Assembly: GCA_016788885.1 (NCBI GenBank)
Contig: JAEURX010000053.1
Span: 1-41,355, forward strand
Source: Nitrospira sp.
GTDB lineage: Bacteria; Nitrospirota; Nitrospiria; Nitrospirales; Nitrospiraceae
Reading direction: 5' to 3'
DNA length: 41,355 nucleotides
Shown: piece after piece, positions 6,010-29,300 of the stretch
How positions within the stretch are numbered: the stretch's first letter is position 1
Layout of the letters: every line of letters begins with the position of its first letter
Notes under the pieces: model-generated
What the model saw: only the letters and a program-made list of their open reading frames with translations
What the model was told of the DNA's origin: nothing
Database searches by the model: none
Program-made: the position numbers and the translations under genes

Positions 6010-6330
6010 ACACCTGGAGAGGTCACTCACCGCACGGCACCACGACCACCCACAAATGTGGTATAACGAGTCAACGGACCAGAGGCGCCACGAGCCGCTT
6101 CTGGGGAAATGACCGCGAGCACGATCACACCTCTTGCTGCCCTTAGCGCCTCAGGCTAACTCGGCCTGGGTGCCTTGCCCGCTCACAGAGTGAACAGAGA
6201 GTCGTTCCCTCGCCCGCCGTCCAGATGAACGGCGCGGATCGGACGGCAGCGCACCGACGCCATCGGCGAGCGGTTCGTCAGACAGACACGATACCCAATG
6301 AGGCCGCTACAGGTTTCGAGGAGAAGGACC
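6010..6330. other. Intergenic region
   Basis: 321 bases without a supported gene. A perfect inverted repeat CCACAAATGTGG at 6050-6061 is directly followed by TATAAC, which would suit a -10 element with an overlapping dimer-binding site. Nothing else stands out. Confidence 0.4.
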
Positions 6331-6501
6331 ATGCCCAAGGCACGAACTGCAAAAAATTGTTACTGTTGCGAAGCAGACGATCGAATCAAGATGACCTATA
6401 TGGTCTGCGCCTTGTGCCATCGACCATTCTGCAGCGCCCATGGCGTGCCTGATCTGGAGCAATGCACGAAATGCCTGGAGGCCAGCGAAGAGACGGAGTA
6501 G
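6331..6501 (+). CDS. Small Cys-rich putative zinc-binding protein
   Basis: A 56-residue protein starting MPKARTAKNCYCCEADD at 6331, with a GGAGAAGG ribosome-binding site in front. It has the pattern C-x-CC, then C-x2-C, C-x3-H and C-x2-C, ending in a short acidic tail. The spacing suggests one or two small zinc sites of treble-clef or B-box/AN1-like type. I do not recognise the family. It converges with the AAA-like gene at 6521, with only 19 bases between the stops. Confidence 0.6.
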   Translation: MPKARTAKNCYCCEADDRIKMTYMVCALCHRPFCSAHGVPDLEQCTKCLEASEETE

Positions 6502-6520: not shown

Positions 6521-7075
6521 TCAACGCGTCGTCTTGGGCCGCCTCGGCTTGCGGGCCTTAATGCCAACCATCACCGACACCCGTGCCTGCTTCGACAAGG
6601 CTTGATCAATGCGGCTCTTTCCATTGGTCGTCAGAATAACGAGCCCCTGATGGTCCTCGATGCGCTGGAGCAGGTGGGCTGCTCCGGCATCCGCATACTG
6701 ACTCGCACTTCCTCGGCGCGTACCAAATAAGGCATCCGCCCCGTCGAAAAACAGGATCGAGCCGCTGCGCTCTGCGTCGTCGAAGACCCGATTGATATTC
6801 TTCTCCGATTCCCCTTCCCGCCGACTCACCACGGACGAGAGATCTACCTTTGACAGATCCAGCTTCAGCTCTTCCGCCACCAATTCCGCCGCTTTGTTCC
6901 GACGGAGCGGCGTCGATCCTGACAGAACCACGACGGCCACTCCCGGCCGTTTCGAGCGGGTAGACCGGCTGCGCCGCGCAGGAGCGGCTTTCTTCCTCGC
7001 CGACGAATTCGCGGTCTGCGTGGGGCCCTTTTTCGAAGACTTTCGCACCGTTGGCTTCACTCTGGTATCCACCAT
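6521..7075 (-). CDS. AAA-like protein lacking a P-loop (paralogue A)
   Basis: A 184-residue protein starting MVDTRVKPTV at 7075. Residues 1-45 are a Lys/Arg/Ser-rich tail. Residues 46-160 align in register with the core of FtsH/spastin-type AAA ATPases: VDLSSVV, an ESEKNINRVFDDAE segment, the Walker B-like ILFFDGADALFG (107-118), and a sensor-1-like LVILTTNGKSRID. Where GPPGTGKT should be, the sequence reads SGSTPLRRNK (52-61), so the P-loop lysine is lost. The Walker B glutamate is also replaced by Gly. The arginine-finger motif and the lid domain are absent and the protein ends in a basic tail. It is therefore probably not an ATPase. It lies 81 bases downstream of an SF2 helicase gene on the same strand. 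A close paralogue is at 18360-18926. Confidence 0.75.
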   Translation of the reverse strand: MVDTRVKPTVRKSSKKGPTQTANSSARKKAAPARRSRSTRSKRPGVAVVVLSGSTPLRRNKAAELVAEELKLDLSKVDLSSVVSRREGESEKNINRVFDDAERSGSILFFDGADALFGTRRGSASQYADAGAAHLLQRIEDHQGLVILTTNGKSRIDQALSKQARVSVMVGIKARKPRRPKTTR

Positions 7076-7156: not shown

Positions 7157-8719
7157 TTACCGCTTTTTGTCGAACCCGGAATCGCGCCATTTTTCGAGCA
7201 GGGCAATGCGCCGCTCCAACTGTGGAATCGTGGCCTGATCGACTCGTCCCCCGGTCCGTTTGATGAGCTCCGCATTGAGCTGTCGGTGATCCACCCCGCA
7301 CTTTCGAGCCACGGCACCGACGAGCAGCCGATGTTTATCCCGCAAGCTGTTCTTCTGGTCGTGTAGCGCCACCGCCGGTTCCGATTGCGCCTTGCCCTCA
7401 CCGGGCGGCTCTCCCTCCTCAGCCCCGATCAAGGCATCGAGCCGGGCCACGCCGTTGAGCGGAATATATTCTTTCAATGAGGTCGCGGCAGTCCCGAAGA
7501 GCGTCCGCTGCACGGACGGCATGATGTCTTCGAGCACATGATCGCGCTCAACCTTGATGCGCTTCGCATAGTGGACCAGCGTGGCATCTTTGGGCAGATA
7601 GAGCCAGGCCCGCTGAGGTTTCGGGACCTTCTCCTGCATCCGCACAAAACGCCCGACGACCTGGCGAAAGTACATCTCGGTCAAGACATTGGTGGCGTAG
7701 ACGCCGACGCGCAAACGCGGAATATCGACCCCTTCACTCACCATGTTCACGGCCACCAGCCATTGCTGCGTTTTGTGATGGGCAAACGTTTCGATCGTTT
7801 TCGAGGCAGAGGGATCGTCGGAGACGGCGACCAGCGCGCGCTGGCCCGTGAGCCGATACACCAGCTCGGCCACCTGCCGCGCATGGTCCTGATTCATGGT
7901 CACGATCAGGCCGCCCGCATCCGCCTGCTCCTGCTTCCGCAGACGCTGCAATTCGGCATGGGCATCGCTCAACACCGGCCCCAGCCAGGTCTCCTGGAGC
8001 AAGGCGGTCTTGAGGCGCTCCCGCTGGCGCTCGAACGTCAACCCGTCCTCGAATGTGGCCCGATGTTCCCGTCCGTCGGACAACCAGGTCAATTCCCCTT
8101 CGTAACTCGGGAAAAGAATCGGCCGACATACCCCGTCACGGATGGAGTGGGAATAGCCATAGGTGAAGTCGGCCTGACTCTCACCCTGTTCGTAGCGCAC
8201 ATACGGAATGGGATTGTTATCGGACCGAAAGGGCGTGCCGGACAAGGCGAGGCGAAAGACGGCCTCCGCGAATGATTCCCGCAGGGCCTTGCCCCAATCC
8301 TTCCCGTCTCCGGCATGGTGTAACTCGTCCAGGATGACCAGAGTCTTGCGACTGCGGCAGGCGCGGCGAAAGACCTCCGGCGCCAAACAGACCTGTTGAT
8401 AGGTCACCACTGCGCCGTGATAGTCCCGTGCTTCGAACGCCTGGTCGTTCGACAAGGCCGGATCGAGTTGAATGCCGACCTGTCCGGCGGCTGAGGCCCA
8501 CTGCGTCCGCAGGTGGTTCGTCGGGCACACCACCACGACACGACCGGCGGCACGGGCGGCCAGATAATGATGGGCAATCCGAAGCGCAAAGCGGGTTTTC
8601 CCCGCCGCCGGTGTGGCGGTCACGAGATAGTCTTCGCGCGGGTTCGCCAACACATCGGCCACGGCCCGAGTCTGCCAATCACGAAGTACTGCGTTCCAGG
8701 GGGCGAGGGTCACCGCCAT
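7157..8719 (-). CDS. SF2 DEAD/DEAH-type helicase
   Basis: A 520-residue superfamily 2 helicase or translocase. Motif I is ATPAAGKT (about residues 35-42), motif Ia includes VVVCPTNHLRTQW (62-74), motif II is DELHH (131-135), motif III is SGTPFR (160-165), and the second RecA domain carries VNMVSEGVDIPRL and motif VI QVVGRFVR. The domain order is typical of RadD- or type III restriction-like SF2 proteins acting on nucleic acid. The C-terminal 90 residues form a charged helical extension. The ATG at 8719 is my start; an in-frame extension to 8809 exists, and AGGAG lies about 20 bases before this ATG, so the exact start is uncertain. The P-loop-less AAA-like gene follows on the same strand. Confidence 0.88.
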   Translation of the reverse strand: MAVTLAPWNAVLRDWQTRAVADVLANPREDYLVTATPAAGKTRFALRIAHHYLAARAAGRVVVVCPTNHLRTQWASAAGQVGIQLDPALSNDQAFEARDYHGAVVTYQQVCLAPEVFRRACRSRKTLVILDELHHAGDGKDWGKALRESFAEAVFRLALSGTPFRSDNNPIPYVRYEQGESQADFTYGYSHSIRDGVCRPILFPSYEGELTWLSDGREHRATFEDGLTFERQRERLKTALLQETWLGPVLSDAHAELQRLRKQEQADAGGLIVTMNQDHARQVAELVYRLTGQRALVAVSDDPSASKTIETFAHHKTQQWLVAVNMVSEGVDIPRLRVGVYATNVLTEMYFRQVVGRFVRMQEKVPKPQRAWLYLPKDATLVHYAKRIKVERDHVLEDIMPSVQRTLFGTAATSLKEYIPLNGVARLDALIGAEEGEPPGEGKAQSEPAVALHDQKNSLRDKHRLLVGAVARKCGVDHRQLNAELIKRTGGRVDQATIPQLERRIALLEKWRDSGFDKKR

Positions 8720-17261: not shown

Positions 17262-17609
17262 TCAGGGAAGAAGCGCGCCCGGGAGGTCGACGGTCAGGTG
17301 CGCGATGATGAGAGCGGCATCGCTGACCGGATCGCTGGTAAACGGCGCGTCATGACGGCGGGTCACCGCCGTGGTCAATCGTTCAGCCGCCTGTCTGACT
17401 TGATTCGGAAACGCCTGCTGCTGCTGAATCCGGCGCAGATGCGCCAGCGCATCGCCATGCCACAACGGGTCACCGACTGCAGACAACCACGCTCGATCGG
17501 CCGCCGCCACCGCCCGCCTCGCACAGACCCGCGCCTTGCCATCCTGCCCTTGCTCCCAGGCGAGCCTGGCCGCAGAGAGCTCCCGATCAATGTGTACAGA
17601 ATCGGACAT
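17262..17609 (-). CDS. Hypothetical helical protein
   Basis: A 115-residue protein starting MSDSVHIDRELSAARL. It is rich in Ala and Arg and likely all-helical (AARLAWEQGQDGKARVCARR, GDALAHLRRIQQQQAF). I do not recognise a family. The stop is 19 bases from that of the converging SnoaL-like gene. Codon use is like its neighbours, so it is probably real. Confidence 0.55.
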   Translation of the reverse strand: MSDSVHIDRELSAARLAWEQGQDGKARVCARRAVAAADRAWLSAVGDPLWHGDALAHLRRIQQQQAFPNQVRQAAERLTTAVTRRHDAPFTSDPVSDAALIIAHLTVDLPGALLP

Positions 17610-17815
17610 ACGCCCCACGCTACGGCTGTGAACGCAAGCCTGTCAACCAGGCGACCGGGTCCCATACCTCAAAACAGACGCGGAACAATTTCTCCCCTTT
17701 TCAGGGAAACCCCTATTCCGCGCAACCCGCCGATCAGTGCATAGTGACTGCGCTCGTTCGAGCCAACTCGAACCGGTCGTCCGCTGGGATACCGCCAACG
17801 ATAGTTGAACCGATC

Positions 17816-18359: not shown

Positions 18360-18926
18360 CTATTTCTTGCGCACGCTGTTCTTCTTGGGTTTCGCCGCTG
18401 GTATGGCCTTCGCCTTCGACGGGTTTTTCTTCGCAGCTCCGCCCAGAACGATCACCGGTTTCTCTTCCGAGAACGCTTCCTCGATACGGCTCTTGCCGTT
18501 CGTTGCGAGGATGACGAGCCCTTGATGCCGTTCGATGCTCTGCAACAAATACGACACGTCACTATTGGCAAATCGATCCTGCGTACCCTGAACTCGACGA
18601 CCGTTGCCGAACAAGGCGTCCGCCTCGTCGAAGAAGAGAATCGACCCGTGGCGGTTGGCCATATCAAACACGCGATTTACGTTCTTTTCCGTTTCACGAA
18701 CATGCTGGCTGACGACCGCGGCAAGATCCACGCTGGCCAGATGGAGTTGCAGTTCTTCGGCCAAGACCTCCGCCGCTTTCTGTCGACGAAGCGGCGTGGC
18801 TCCCGACAGCACGATCACCGCGCCGGACGGCTCGAGAGCTTGCTCGGCCTTCGCCCGACGCACCGGCGTCTTCTTCTTCACTTGGGGAGTGCGCGTCTTT
18901 CGCCGAATCACTGGTGCTGTTGCCAT
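18360..18926 (-). CDS. AAA-like protein lacking a P-loop (paralogue B)
   Basis: A 188-residue protein, paralogous to the one at 6521-7075. A basic tail (residues 1-30) leads into an AAA core: VDLAAVVSQHVRETEKNVNR, an intact Walker B ILFFDEADALFG (96-107), and sensor-1-like LVILATNGKSRIEEAF. The P-loop position reads SGATPLRRQK (41-50) instead of GPPGTGKT, so the nucleotide-binding lysine is missing. The protein stops soon after sensor 1, without arginine finger or lid, and ends in a second Lys/Ala-rich tail. Unlike paralogue A it keeps DEAD in Walker B. It may be a pseudo-ATPase that binds nucleic acid or a partner through its tails; this is inference. The zinc-ribbon gene follows upstream in the same direction. 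Confidence 0.78.
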   Translation of the reverse strand: MATAPVIRRKTRTPQVKKKTPVRRAKAEQALEPSGAVIVLSGATPLRRQKAAEVLAEELQLHLASVDLAAVVSQHVRETEKNVNRVFDMANRHGSILFFDEADALFGNGRRVQGTQDRFANSDVSYLLQSIERHQGLVILATNGKSRIEEAFSEEKPVIVLGGAAKKNPSKAKAIPAAKPKKNSVRKK

Positions 18927-19035
18927 ATCTCAGATCCCCTTCCGGTTCATACGTGACTGTCCCTCCGGCACAACTACGGCCTGCCGGAGAGACGGCTGAG
19001 TATAACCGGTTCTTACTGAGAATGTCTTTGCGCGG

Positions 19036-19395
19036 TCAGGTTTCCATCATCTCCAGGCGCGCATCAAACTCATGCCCACAGGCGGCGCAACGGATACAAT
19101 CGGACTCGACGGTGAGCTCCTTGGCCCTGACCCCCATACCGCCGCAATCCGGACAACGAGTCAGGTGCACCCGCCGATCGTCGACGGTCTCATATTGCAC
19201 GCCGTGCAGACAATAGATCGGTTGGCCGTCGAGCTGCCAGGGCTTCCCGGCGTTGTCATGCACCGGCAGTACGATGTAGTGCTGCTTCACATAGTCTGCC
19301 AACGCTCGATAGCTCGGGAATCCGCTGTGGATCAGTTTGCCGCTCACGGCGTGATAGAGCGCCTGCTGTTTTACCACTGCCTTGGTTGGACCCAT
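19036..19395 (-). CDS. Zinc-ribbon hypothetical protein
   Basis: A 119-residue protein starting at 19395 with GGAGGAGGT ahead of it. The first 70 residues contain a predicted helix (SGFPSYRALADYVKQHY). The C-terminal part has two Cys pairs, CPDCGG and CIRCAACGHEF, forming a likely zinc ribbon. No known family is recognised. It lies just upstream of AAA-like paralogue B on the same strand, with 109 bases between them. Confidence 0.65.
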   Translation of the reverse strand: MGPTKAVVKQQALYHAVSGKLIHSGFPSYRALADYVKQHYIVLPVHDNAGKPWQLDGQPIYCLHGVQYETVDDRRVHLTRCPDCGGMGVRAKELTVESDCIRCAACGHEFDARLEMMET

Positions 19396-25955: not shown

Positions 25956-27083
25956 CTATTTGGGTTTCAGAAGCAAAATAAGCTCATTTGCATTTTGGCG
26001 AGGTGCTCGTTTAATCCCTGTTTTTGAGAACCTATCGGTGCCGCCAAGAGTGCTGAATTTACTTTCAACTATTTTTTCATTTACTTTGAAACGTTCCTTT
26101 GCGATGACGCGAATAATCTCCCCAGACAGTCCATTCGAACAAATGTGATCCGGAAAAGTAAGAATCGCAACGGCGCCACTCAAAGCCACGGTTTCCAATA
26201 GACTTTTAAGAGCCTCCCGTGATTCGCTTACTCGACTGTATTTGGATGTGGGACGATCTGCAATAGAAGGATAGCGTCCTACCCCCGACACTTCTCCGCA
26301 ACCGCCTCGCGCTATTGTCTCAAGCACATGGTAAAAACGGCTATACTGGACTCCTGAATAGGGGGGATCAATAAAAACTAAATCACCCACTCTCAGACGA
26401 GTTGCAGCTTCGTTTGCATCCCCCACACTTGCTTGCCCCGGCATTTTTGCATGACGTATGGCGAGCGACCATAAACAACTACGGATCCGCTCAACAATGT
26501 CCTTAGCCCAAGCTTCTTGAAGAAACTTTTTAGCAGTTCTAGTCGGCCTGAAAGGCTGCGCAGTATGCCCTGGTGCGGCGACACACCACCCACTCGCCTC
26601 GATCAGGGCTGCAAGCGCAACGGTTCTATTTGGTTCAGTAGATGGCAGAGTCTGCCTAAAGGCATCAATCCAAATGGACTGTTGGGGACTGAAATAGTGC
26701 CCACCATAAGCTTTGGTCACTGGTAGGTCATTTTGAGCATCGCTCCAATCTCTGCATTCTCTCACCGTATGCCAGGTTATTTTATCTGGCCATTTCCAGG
26801 ATTTACCGTTGAAAATACTTTCTGCACGCTTCTGCCAGGGCCCCCATATCAAATTGCCTAGGACCGGTCTATTGCGATGAATGACCGCGCCCGTGAGCAC
26901 AGAGCTAAATTCCTGGATATCGAAGGCACAAACGGGGATTCTCTGCGTCTTAGCTACATGAGATGAGACCGCCCCGGATCCTGCAAAGAGATCTACGAAC
27001 CGCTTTGCATTTCTAGTATTCTTAGCCAAGATGGTGCCCAGTCCATTATTGAGCATCCACCGCTTTGAACCCATATATTTCAT
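25956..27083 (-). CDS. D12-class DNA adenine methyltransferase
   Basis: A 375-residue protein that should transfer a methyl group from S-adenosylmethionine to adenine N6. The start is the ATG at 27083 (MKYMGSKRWML). The order of motifs is that of D12 (alpha-group) enzymes: YMGSK at 3-7, motif I FVDLFAGSG (29-37), and motif IV DPPY (239-242), followed by SGVQYSRFYHVLE. The 200 residues between them, containing several Trp-rich blocks, should hold the target-recognition domain. Its ATG overlaps the stop of the upstream gene (ATGA), so the two are translationally coupled. Target sequence unknown. Base composition is AT-richer than the flanks. Confidence 0.88.
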   Translation of the reverse strand: MKYMGSKRWMLNNGLGTILAKNTRNAKRFVDLFAGSGAVSSHVAKTQRIPVCAFDIQEFSSVLTGAVIHRNRPVLGNLIWGPWQKRAESIFNGKSWKWPDKITWHTVRECRDWSDAQNDLPVTKAYGGHYFSPQQSIWIDAFRQTLPSTEPNRTVALAALIEASGWCVAAPGHTAQPFRPTRTAKKFLQEAWAKDIVERIRSCLWSLAIRHAKMPGQASVGDANEAATRLRVGDLVFIDPPYSGVQYSRFYHVLETIARGGCGEVSGVGRYPSIADRPTSKYSRVSESREALKSLLETVALSGAVAILTFPDHICSNGLSGEIIRVIAKERFKVNEKIVESKFSTLGGTDRFSKTGIKRAPRQNANELILLLKPK

Positions 27084-27949
27084 GATCGAGAGGAGATCGA
27101 GCCAATCCCACCTTGTTCGATCAGCTGAAAATTGGTGAAGCCAGCCGTCCATGCAGGATTGCGATGAACTTTCCAAAAACGATTAGAGTCTCCAAGAGCT
27201 TCATTGACAAAGTTTCGAAATCTCACGATTCTGTGGTAGGCCAGTATTTGTATCGCCTCTACGTCCGGAAACTTTCCCTTTTGCGGAGATGGAGGCGAAT
27301 CAAAATGCATACTCGAGATAAATGCAATTCTATCCTTGAGGATTGCTTCGCTCAGCGGAGAAAACTTGGGAATAAAAGAGGATAGATGATCGCAATAATT
27401 GGCCGCATCTCGATGTTTAATCTCTGAGATAACAGAATCAGACTCCTCAAGGTTATTCGTGAACAATGGATCCGCAGAAAAGCTTGGAACTTCCTTAATT
27501 AATTTCCAATAAAATTGATGCTCACGGTCGCCACCCTGCTTCGCCCGAAATGAACATTTGCCCCTCTTCCCATCAAACTCAAGACAGGCTATCTTTTTCA
27601 CTCTGAAGCTCTGAAAGTGGCCAAGCAAATGAGCAAACGCGCGCACGCAGTAATGACTCGCATAGTAGGCACCCACAGAAGACCAAATTGGACTAGCCTT
27701 GGTAAGGGACGCAGAAATGAGAAAACTATGAACGGCCCGCAGCCACATATCCACAGCAGCCGTTGCAAACAACTTAAAGTTTTCCGGCTCGAGATCCACT
27801 GGATCGCCACATCTTTTCCTAAACCATTTCTCAACAGACTTTGATAGACTGTCGGGAGGCGGAAACGACTTAGCTGCTGCTTGGGTTTTTAACGGTTCAA
27901 AAGTGTAACAAATATGCTCTCTGAGATTTGCATTAATATGAAAACTCAT
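27080..27949 (-). CDS. Unrecognised protein of the modification island
   Basis: A 289-residue protein starting MSFHINANLREHICYTF at 27949 (GGAG 10 bases upstream), overlapping the DGQHR gene by 17 bases and the methyltransferase by 4. I do not recognise a family. A helical stretch at 91-110 (SSVGAYYASHYCVRAFAHLL) resembles the core helix of HEPN-type domains, but the canonical R-x4-6-H is not evident. The middle (KKIACLEFDGKRGKCSFR) may be a beta hairpin. Its position between a DGQHR protein and a DNA methyltransferase suggests a part in the same system. Confidence 0.7.
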   Translation of the reverse strand: MSFHINANLREHICYTFEPLKTQAAAKSFPPPDSLSKSVEKWFRKRCGDPVDLEPENFKLFATAAVDMWLRAVHSFLISASLTKASPIWSSVGAYYASHYCVRAFAHLLGHFQSFRVKKIACLEFDGKRGKCSFRAKQGGDREHQFYWKLIKEVPSFSADPLFTNNLEESDSVISEIKHRDAANYCDHLSSFIPKFSPLSEAILKDRIAFISSMHFDSPPSPQKGKFPDVEAIQILAYHRIVRFRNFVNEALGDSNRFWKVHRNPAWTAGFTNFQLIEQGGIGSISSRS

Positions 27950-29300
27950 CTTGCACTTTACTCCGAAATTTCTCACGTCCAAACGCTGCCCGATCGGCTA
28001 ACGCCTCTGCCTTCAGTCTAGCAACACTCTCTGTAGAAGTTGCTGCCGCCCACAAAAGATCGCGAAATCTTGAAACGCCACCGCTACCAAGAAATCCCTT
28101 TTCTTTAAATTTAGGTTTGGGCAAGAACTTCTCCCGCTCCAGAAGTCCTCCACGCCTCATTAGGTCGTGCAGGAACCTAATAAGAGTCTCATGGCTCCTA
28201 TCTGAAATCAGTTGAAATTCGTTACGCTTCAACTTTGATATACAAACCGGAAGCAAGGTAAGAAATGAAACAAGGACTCGCCCCTGATATGCCACGTTGT
28301 CAGGGTCAAGCGATTCCCCTTCGCTCACTTCCTGTTTTCGTCCCGTCGCTTCTAGCCAGGCATCTAAGCACTGCGCCAAGAATTCTGTCTGTTGATCTAG
28401 ATTGTCAATACCGCATTCCCTCATGATTGGAATTACTTCTTCGATAGCAGAATTGAGAGTCGCAAGCGCTACTACATCCGGAACGCCATACTTGATCCCA
28501 GGTATCTGAATCATTCCCACGAGCGGGCCTGTTTCAAGCATTAGCCTTCTCCCGAGATCCTGCGCTCGCTCCTTATCGTCAAGAGGGGCGCGACTGCCTC
28601 TGGCAGTAGGAAAGAGATCGGCGACCAAGGATTTGTCAACCTTCTTCTGATTGAAATTAACATCAATAAAAATTTGAGCCTGGCGCCTCGGTGCTTCATT
28701 TGGCGGGTCAAGGTCAAGAAAAATTTCAGCTGGAATATCCCACACTGCTTTTCTGTTTTCTTCTTGAAGGATCCTCAGCGCAAGGAAAGCACCGTTAATT
28801 CTATGCTGACCGTCTATTACAGAAAAACTAAGCGCTTTGTCTTCCTCATCAAATGTTAACGTTGCGGCTTCCTGCTTGTCCTCGAGCGGCTTAACCAATG
28901 CACCATTTACATGCAGCAGAACGTTTGAAAAAGTAGGGTACTCACTATTCTGAAAGCCAACGACCCTTTGCACCTTCGGAGGCCATTCTCTTCCCGGCTC
29001 TAGTTTTTTAGGCTCGTAAATGTTTCGAAAATACTTATCAATGAGCTTCGGAGCATCAACAATCTCTTTCTGAAGCAAATAAGCAGCTATCTTTGCAACC
29101 CGCTTCCAATCCAGCGAACGCTGAATTGAACGAACCTTATCAGCATCATGTCTTGGGGTATGTGGCTTTCCCGGCCACCATTGCATTAGCTTCTCAACAT
29201 TTAATGCTGTAAGGCAGTGACGAGTCTCTTGTAAATCTGCAGGCGCAAAAGGATTCATTGGTACAATGACTGAAATTCTTTGAATAGAACGTTTGCTCAT
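27933..29300 (-). CDS. DGQHR-domain protein (DndB-like)
   Basis: A 455-residue protein. The central block FSVIDGQHRINGAF (159-172) is the DGQHR motif shared by DndB and related proteins of DNA phosphorothioation and 7-deazaguanine DNA-modification clusters, with IFIDVNFNQKKVDKSLVADL about 40 residues later, as in that family. The family fold is related to ParB/sulfiredoxin. The N-terminal 150 residues and the C-terminal helical region (GIDNLDQQTEFLAQCLDAWL) are less familiar. No dnd or dpd partner genes are present here; instead it leads a three-gene unit ending in an adenine methyltransferase. The start is the ATG at 29300 with GAGGG upstream. Confidence 0.82.
   Translation of the reverse strand: MSKRSIQRISVIVPMNPFAPADLQETRHCLTALNVEKLMQWWPGKPHTPRHDADKVRSIQRSLDWKRVAKIAAYLLQKEIVDAPKLIDKYFRNIYEPKKLEPGREWPPKVQRVVGFQNSEYPTFSNVLLHVNGALVKPLEDKQEAATLTFDEEDKALSFSVIDGQHRINGAFLALRILQEENRKAVWDIPAEIFLDLDPPNEAPRRQAQIFIDVNFNQKKVDKSLVADLFPTARGSRAPLDDKERAQDLGRRLMLETGPLVGMIQIPGIKYGVPDVVALATLNSAIEEVIPIMRECGIDNLDQQTEFLAQCLDAWLEATGRKQEVSEGESLDPDNVAYQGRVLVSFLTLLPVCISKLKRNEFQLISDRSHETLIRFLHDLMRRGGLLEREKFLPKPKFKEKGFLGSGGVSRFRDLLWAAATSTESVARLKAEALADRAAFGREKFRSKVQDEFSY

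Follow-up and report, generated by a model that had tools for sequence, protein, structure and literature searches.

A conserved pair of catalytically dead, lid-less AAA-fold proteins with a replaced P-loop in Nitrospira

The stretch of DNA analyzed here, referred to as the window, comprises 41,355 nucleotides and belongs, as contig C53, to a Nitrospira sp. assembly with a total size of 3.9 Mb. It carries two related genes on its minus strand, to which all coordinates within the two genes refer. Copy B (18360-18926) encodes a P-loop-less and lid-less AAA-fold protein of 188 amino acids from an ATG start, with orthologues in most of the genus. A sequence-only reading of the window had proposed this open reading frame without giving its strand, and the gene proves to be real. 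Its paralogue, copy A (6521-7075), encodes 184 amino acids from an ATG, and the two proteins share 55% identity across 157 amino acids. In a profile search, both match the Pfam AAA family (PF00004, cut-off 21.2 bits), copy B with 55.5 bits (E=1e-14) and copy A with 61.3 bits (E=1.7e-16), values which exclude a chance resemblance. All the AAA motifs quoted for copy B in the earlier reading are present.

The former P-loop of copy B (residues 41-50, 18777-18806) reads SGATPLRRQK and that of copy A (6893-6922) SGSTPLRRNK, as opposed to GPSGTGKTMAAE in the aligned full-length relatives. Column by column, arginines stand in for both the second glycine and the lysine of the P-loop, and its threonine has given way to glutamine (copy B) or asparagine (copy A). 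The stretch that should follow the Walker A pattern GxxxxGK[ST] is GATPLRRQ in copy B and GSTPLRRN in copy A. The alignment thus bears out the proposal that GPPGTGKT had given way to SGATPLRRQK, and that a sibling carries the same substitution at the same place. Among the distinct domain sequences compared (23 of copy B, 24 of copy A and 14 from the sister genus g10), every one holds the motif TxxRRxK, with two single-residue exceptions, and none of these orthologues has an intact P-loop. In this pseudo-AAA family, T44 and R48 are conserved in 100% of the sequences, R47 and K50 in 98%, and L46 in 97%, in columns occupied by S, G, M, K and T, respectively, for T44, R47, K50, R48 and L46 in the full-length relatives. 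These comparisons show that the P-loop has turned into a new fixed sequence, T-x-L-R-R-x-K.

The remaining elements of the AAA machinery have fared differently from one another. Former pore loop 1 of copy B (residues 74-77, 18696-18707) reads QHVR where full-length relatives have KYIG, and the lysine and tyrosine at positions 74 and 75, present in 100% of these relatives, are unconserved in the pseudo-AAA family. The former arginine-finger pair, RR in 100% of the full-length relatives, is EE in copy B (residues 154-155, 18462-18467) and EE, PE, RQ or KQ throughout the family. The pore-loop and arginine pairs, the Walker-A threonine and other residues have been freed despite being fixed in full-length proteins. 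The C-terminal helical lid with sensor 2 is absent, since the open reading frame of copy B stops around 26 residues past the last core strand, in a tail that is modeled with low confidence and without helices. The sequence-only reading was thus right that both the arginine finger and the lid are gone. It had also taken the retention of Walker B as a sign of maintenance, an argument that holds for copy B, where ILFFDEADALF (residues 96-106, 18609-18641) keeps its DE pair in 23 of 23 distinct sequences, as it does in g10, and fails for copy A. There, the degenerate ILFFDGADALF (6725-6757) has lost the glutamate, and the 22 distinct A sequences hold DG (15), DD (1) or DE (6), so that the glutamate is gone in 16 of 22. 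All the catalytic and translocation features tested are lost, except for the Walker-B pair and sensor 1 in copy B. Because the pore-loop and arginine-finger residues and the Walker-B glutamate of the sibling are gone, it is the fold that is preserved, not the chemistry. As for the order of these events, the A copies of genomes G001 and G006 retain FFDEADALFGKRTSV and SKYVGE, and from this comparison the P-loop looks to have been lost first, and the pore loop and the Walker-B glutamate later.

Along with these losses, the pseudo-AAA family has newly fixed T44, L46, R47, R48, K50, H134, G144, K145, R147, S153 and V158. Column conservation places three of them in a GKSRI stretch right after the sensor-1 asparagine (asparagine and stretch together copy B residues 143-148, 18483-18500), where G144 (100%), K145 (90%) and R147 (92%) are variable in full-length relatives. 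Several of the newly fixed residues fall in loop segments known to border the nucleotide site of the AAA fold.

The structure of copy B was predicted with AlphaFold2 from an alignment of 55 rows. The model contains a complete five-strand core, with a mean pLDDT of 66 and values of 82-87 around the former P-loop (moderate confidence), while both tails are of low confidence. Aligned with VIA-align, it matches the D1 domain of p97 (Z 14.5, 124 residues, 3.2 Å), so the AAA core is predicted to be intact. With both copies scoring above the curated Pfam cut-off, this match supports membership of the AAA family by descent. Helix 1 of the model begins at residue 45, the proline of T-P-L-R-R. When an intact relative was modeled from these same rows, its equivalent helix began at the P-loop lysine K47 (G41-E-S-G-T-G-K47-T), which in register puts the onset three residues earlier in copy B. 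The former P-loop is thus predicted to have been absorbed into helix 1 as its first turn, which T-P would cap in the manner typical of helices, and T-x-L-R-R-x-K would lengthen this helix and shut the phosphate pocket.

The same segment could be read in another way, in which a nucleotide or other anion would still be bound at the old site through the two arginines and the lysine, and the protein would act as a ligand sensor. The glycine-rich loop is, however, predicted to be helical, the position of the Walker-A lysine is taken by an arginine, and most A copies no longer have the Walker-B glutamate. These observations make such a sensor unlikely, even though Arg-Arg-x-Lys is fixed at the former phosphate position, beside the kept sensor-1 asparagine and, in copy B, the Walker-B DE pair, and GKSRI has become fixed just past sensor 1.

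By sequence, the nearest family is that of the contractile-injection-system AAA ATPases with a winged-helix N-domain (Pvc15/Afp15-like), and not the spastin/FtsH type suggested earlier. The AAA core that each of the two genes encodes, catalytically dead and without a lid, is related to D2, the AAA domain of the full-length ATPases of this type. For Pvc15, the equivalent ATPase, D2 is described with its Walker motifs, with Lys528-Tyr529 as pore-loop pair and with Arg608-Arg609 as arginine fingers (PMC11495950). The cores are 45-51% identical, with Walker B, sensor 1 and the ETEKN stretch in register, whereas the winged helix, further N-terminal sequence, GxSGTGKT, the KY pore loop, the RR fingers and the lid are found only in the full-length proteins, and the pseudo-AAA protein bears basic tails in their place. 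Instead of a winged-helix N-domain and two AAA domains, copy B has one core in its 188 amino acids. The only other close match in the same genome is the AAA domain of a 645-amino-acid protein with an intact GESGTGKT (contig C10, locus L003/L200). The winged-helix domain PF22977 was found in this protein and is absent from the proteins of the window. The 645-amino-acid protein is encoded within a cluster (L200:3167-19605) whose open reading frames resemble, by inspection, tail sheath, tube, baseplate and DUF4157-type proteins, which identifies a contractile injection system cluster. Several DUF4157-like proteins adjoin the ATPase there.

Other comparisons are more distant. The best NCBIfam match, reached through the AAA core, is the anti-phage ATPase IteA (NF042959), although a score of 39.6 bits, where membership requires 510, and the lost active site place the pseudo-AAA proteins outside that family. 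P-loop-less AAA+ subunits are known from clamp loaders (delta and delta-prime) and from plastids (FtsHi), and these likewise keep the AAA fold without ATP hydrolysis. They nevertheless retain the lid and are stoichiometric members of AAA assemblies, unlike the lid-less, free-standing core described here. A search of the available literature for a described stand-alone P-loop-less AAA protein from Nitrospira or other bacteria found nothing relevant.

Catalytically dead subunits are common in AAA rings, and copies A and B could accordingly be dominant-negative or capping subunits that join and regulate the rings of the full-length injection-type ATPase. The identity of 45-51% between their cores and the full-length ATPases encoded in these same genomes and the location of the own full-length copy in an injection cluster would fit this role. 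It is rendered quite improbable by the loss of the ring-interface arginines and the lid, by the distance of both copies from the injection cluster, by the near-complete genomes G011, G013 and G014, which carry A and B and gave no full-length match, and by most sister-genus genomes, which likewise gave none. An obligatory partnership with the full-length ATPase was rejected on account of the several genomes with the pseudo-AAA pair that gave no such match.

Besides its own genome, 28 genomes of the same genus were searched. G004 (a single contig) lacks both copies, G001 and G006 carry only A, and the remaining ones hold B, A or both, usually 12-24 kb apart. Among these, G027 has the helicase described below and copy B with no match to A, and G009 has one split copy. 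The sister genus g10 holds a single copy with the same replaced motif, so that the motif, which the sequence-only reading proposed to look for elsewhere, extends across the genus and beyond it. The median dN/dS of the core (Nei-Gojobori, pairs with dS 0.05-1.5) is 0.074 for B and 0.076 for A, approximate figures given that dS medians lie near 1, close to saturation. Apart from the lost motifs, the core is thus shown to be under strong purifying selection. The missing catalytic motifs and the split copy of G009, which comes from a 1030-contig assembly, might suggest gene decay or a sequencing artefact, a reading that is left with virtually no weight by the same replacement in dozens of independent genomes, a core dN/dS of about 0.07 and intact frames. 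Independent assemblies likewise rule out a sequencing error concealing a GKT. The genus-wide replacement, the selection on the core and the predicted fold agree with the earlier view of a shortened pseudo-ATPase that is maintained rather than decaying, and we hold this to be almost certain.

Stand-alone lid-less AAA cores of about 165-265 amino acids are also encoded in other Nitrospirota families (L133-L140, L181-L187). Their P-loops are intact in L135, L140 and L185, partly eroded in others (GPSGSART, GPSGTGKM/K, DPSGKGQT, DPHGAGRT, DPSGTGEA), and unrecognisable in a third set ((A)GSSDDLKT, GPRQKEKLE, GSTKLQRRK). These mini-AAA proteins resemble the pseudo-AAA family in architecture and in the erosion of several P-loops, but have neither T-x-L-R-R-x-K nor a comparable pair of basic tails. 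On a tree of 111 columns, built with the P-loop columns left out and with many forks open, the state of the P-loop changes at least five times without truncated rows and seven times with them. A single clade of A, B and g10 is not rejected (p-AU 0.71), and the constrained tree outscored the free search. A mobile or phage origin was discarded, as the family alignment found no encoded relative in viral contigs; phage records gave weak AAA matches only, and plasmids ordinary ATP-binding proteins.

The genes neighboring the pseudo-AAA genes in the window include helicases, a GIY-YIG gene and a zinc-ribbon gene, among others. Directly upstream of copy A, with a gap of 81 nt, lies a ResIII/DEAD-type helicase gene (7157-8719, minus strand, 520 amino acids; PF04851, E=1e-15). 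In 24 of 24 loci examined, the helicase gene is adjacent to and co-directional with copy A, which comes after it, at a distance of mostly 52-84 nt in loci with a called ATG start. A search for terminator-like or promoter-like sites on the minus strand between the two genes found none. The helicase also occurs without copy A, in G004 of the same genus and in genera g2, g6, g8 and others, and copy A was therefore probably added later to an older gene. For the same reason, an obligatory pairing of copy A and the helicase was rejected, the latter being older and more widespread. On the plus strand, a small open reading frame with paired, zinc-finger-like CxxC motifs (6298-6501) is convergent with copy A and ends 20 nt from its end.

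Copy B has a different setting, from which the helicase link is missing. A small zinc-ribbon-like protein (19036-19395, minus strand; weak zinc-ribbon matches only) is encoded 109 nt upstream, an arrangement shared by many genomes. Downstream of copy B lies a convergent GIY-YIG gene. One promoter-like site was found near copy B (18999-19028, minus strand). An uncharacterised protein of about 115 amino acids, whose start is uncertain (17262-17618, minus strand), gave no match in a Pfam search and is encoded beside the pseudo-AAA gene in both genera, this one and g10 (for instance at L132:10608-10949). It is missing from G001, G004 and G006, all without B, and the B-bearing G021 and G027 also gave no match. 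In g10, an RNB-domain exoribonuclease of the RNase II type (for instance L131:10666-12123) is encoded downstream of the pseudo-AAA gene in 6 of 11 loci examined, immediately next to it in four of them and separated from it by one gene in the other two. No Rfam families or tRNAs were found in the window.

Elsewhere in the window, positions 25956-29300 have a low GC content (45-52%, against about 60%) and hold three minus-strand open reading frames which by inspection read like an adenine-specific DNA methylase, a DGQHR/DndB-type protein of about 455 amino acids and one unknown protein. The stretch has the look of an island for defence or modification that was acquired recently.

Both ends of the two proteins are strongly basic. 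In copy B, charge counts give net +8 for the N-terminal tail (residues 1-34, 18825-18926) and +10 for the C-terminal one (residues 163-188, 18363-18440), around a core of -3; both tails of copy A carry +9, around a core of +3. Of the 467 other called proteins, just 2 are as basic at both ends as copy B. In homologues, the N-terminal tail holds on average 11.9 K+R and 1.2 D+E in B, and 17.0 and 1.5 in A, and the C-terminal tail 10.1 and 0.3 in B, and 5.7 and 0.3 in A. The tail sequences vary (dN/dS 0.33-0.44 by Nei-Gojobori, approximate as dS is close to saturation), and the charge stays. As both tails are strongly basic in homologues and a helicase adjoins copy A, contact with nucleic acid is plausible; the tails could also bind polyphosphate, membranes or acidic proteins.

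The explanation we favor combines a catalytically dead docking core with basic tails, and makes copy A an accessory to the helicase; taken as a whole, its chances are about even. The core would serve as a rigid docking module, held on DNA or RNA by the two unfolded basic tails. Copy A would be an accessory factor or tether for the ResIII-type helicase, and a related function would fall to copy B at the locus where it is encoded. Neither ATP hydrolysis nor hexameric translocation would be expected. That the proteins work as a scaffold held on nucleic acid is, considered separately, an evenly balanced proposition. A more far-reaching account, which we regard as doubtful, is that an injection-system AAA motor supplied the core for an ATP-independent nucleic-acid scaffold with histone-like basic tails, which was duplicated and had its P-loop recoded as an interaction helix, with a similar stripping taking place separately in other Nitrospirota families.

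These proteins provide a natural series of P-loop loss, from intact mini-AAA proteins, through partly eroded ones, to a clade with a fixed new motif under selection for the fold. They indicate that an AAA core can be retained for reasons beyond ATP chemistry, even without the lid and the ring contacts, and they offer a testable role for a widely conserved, uncharacterised protein pair of nitrite-oxidising Nitrospira.
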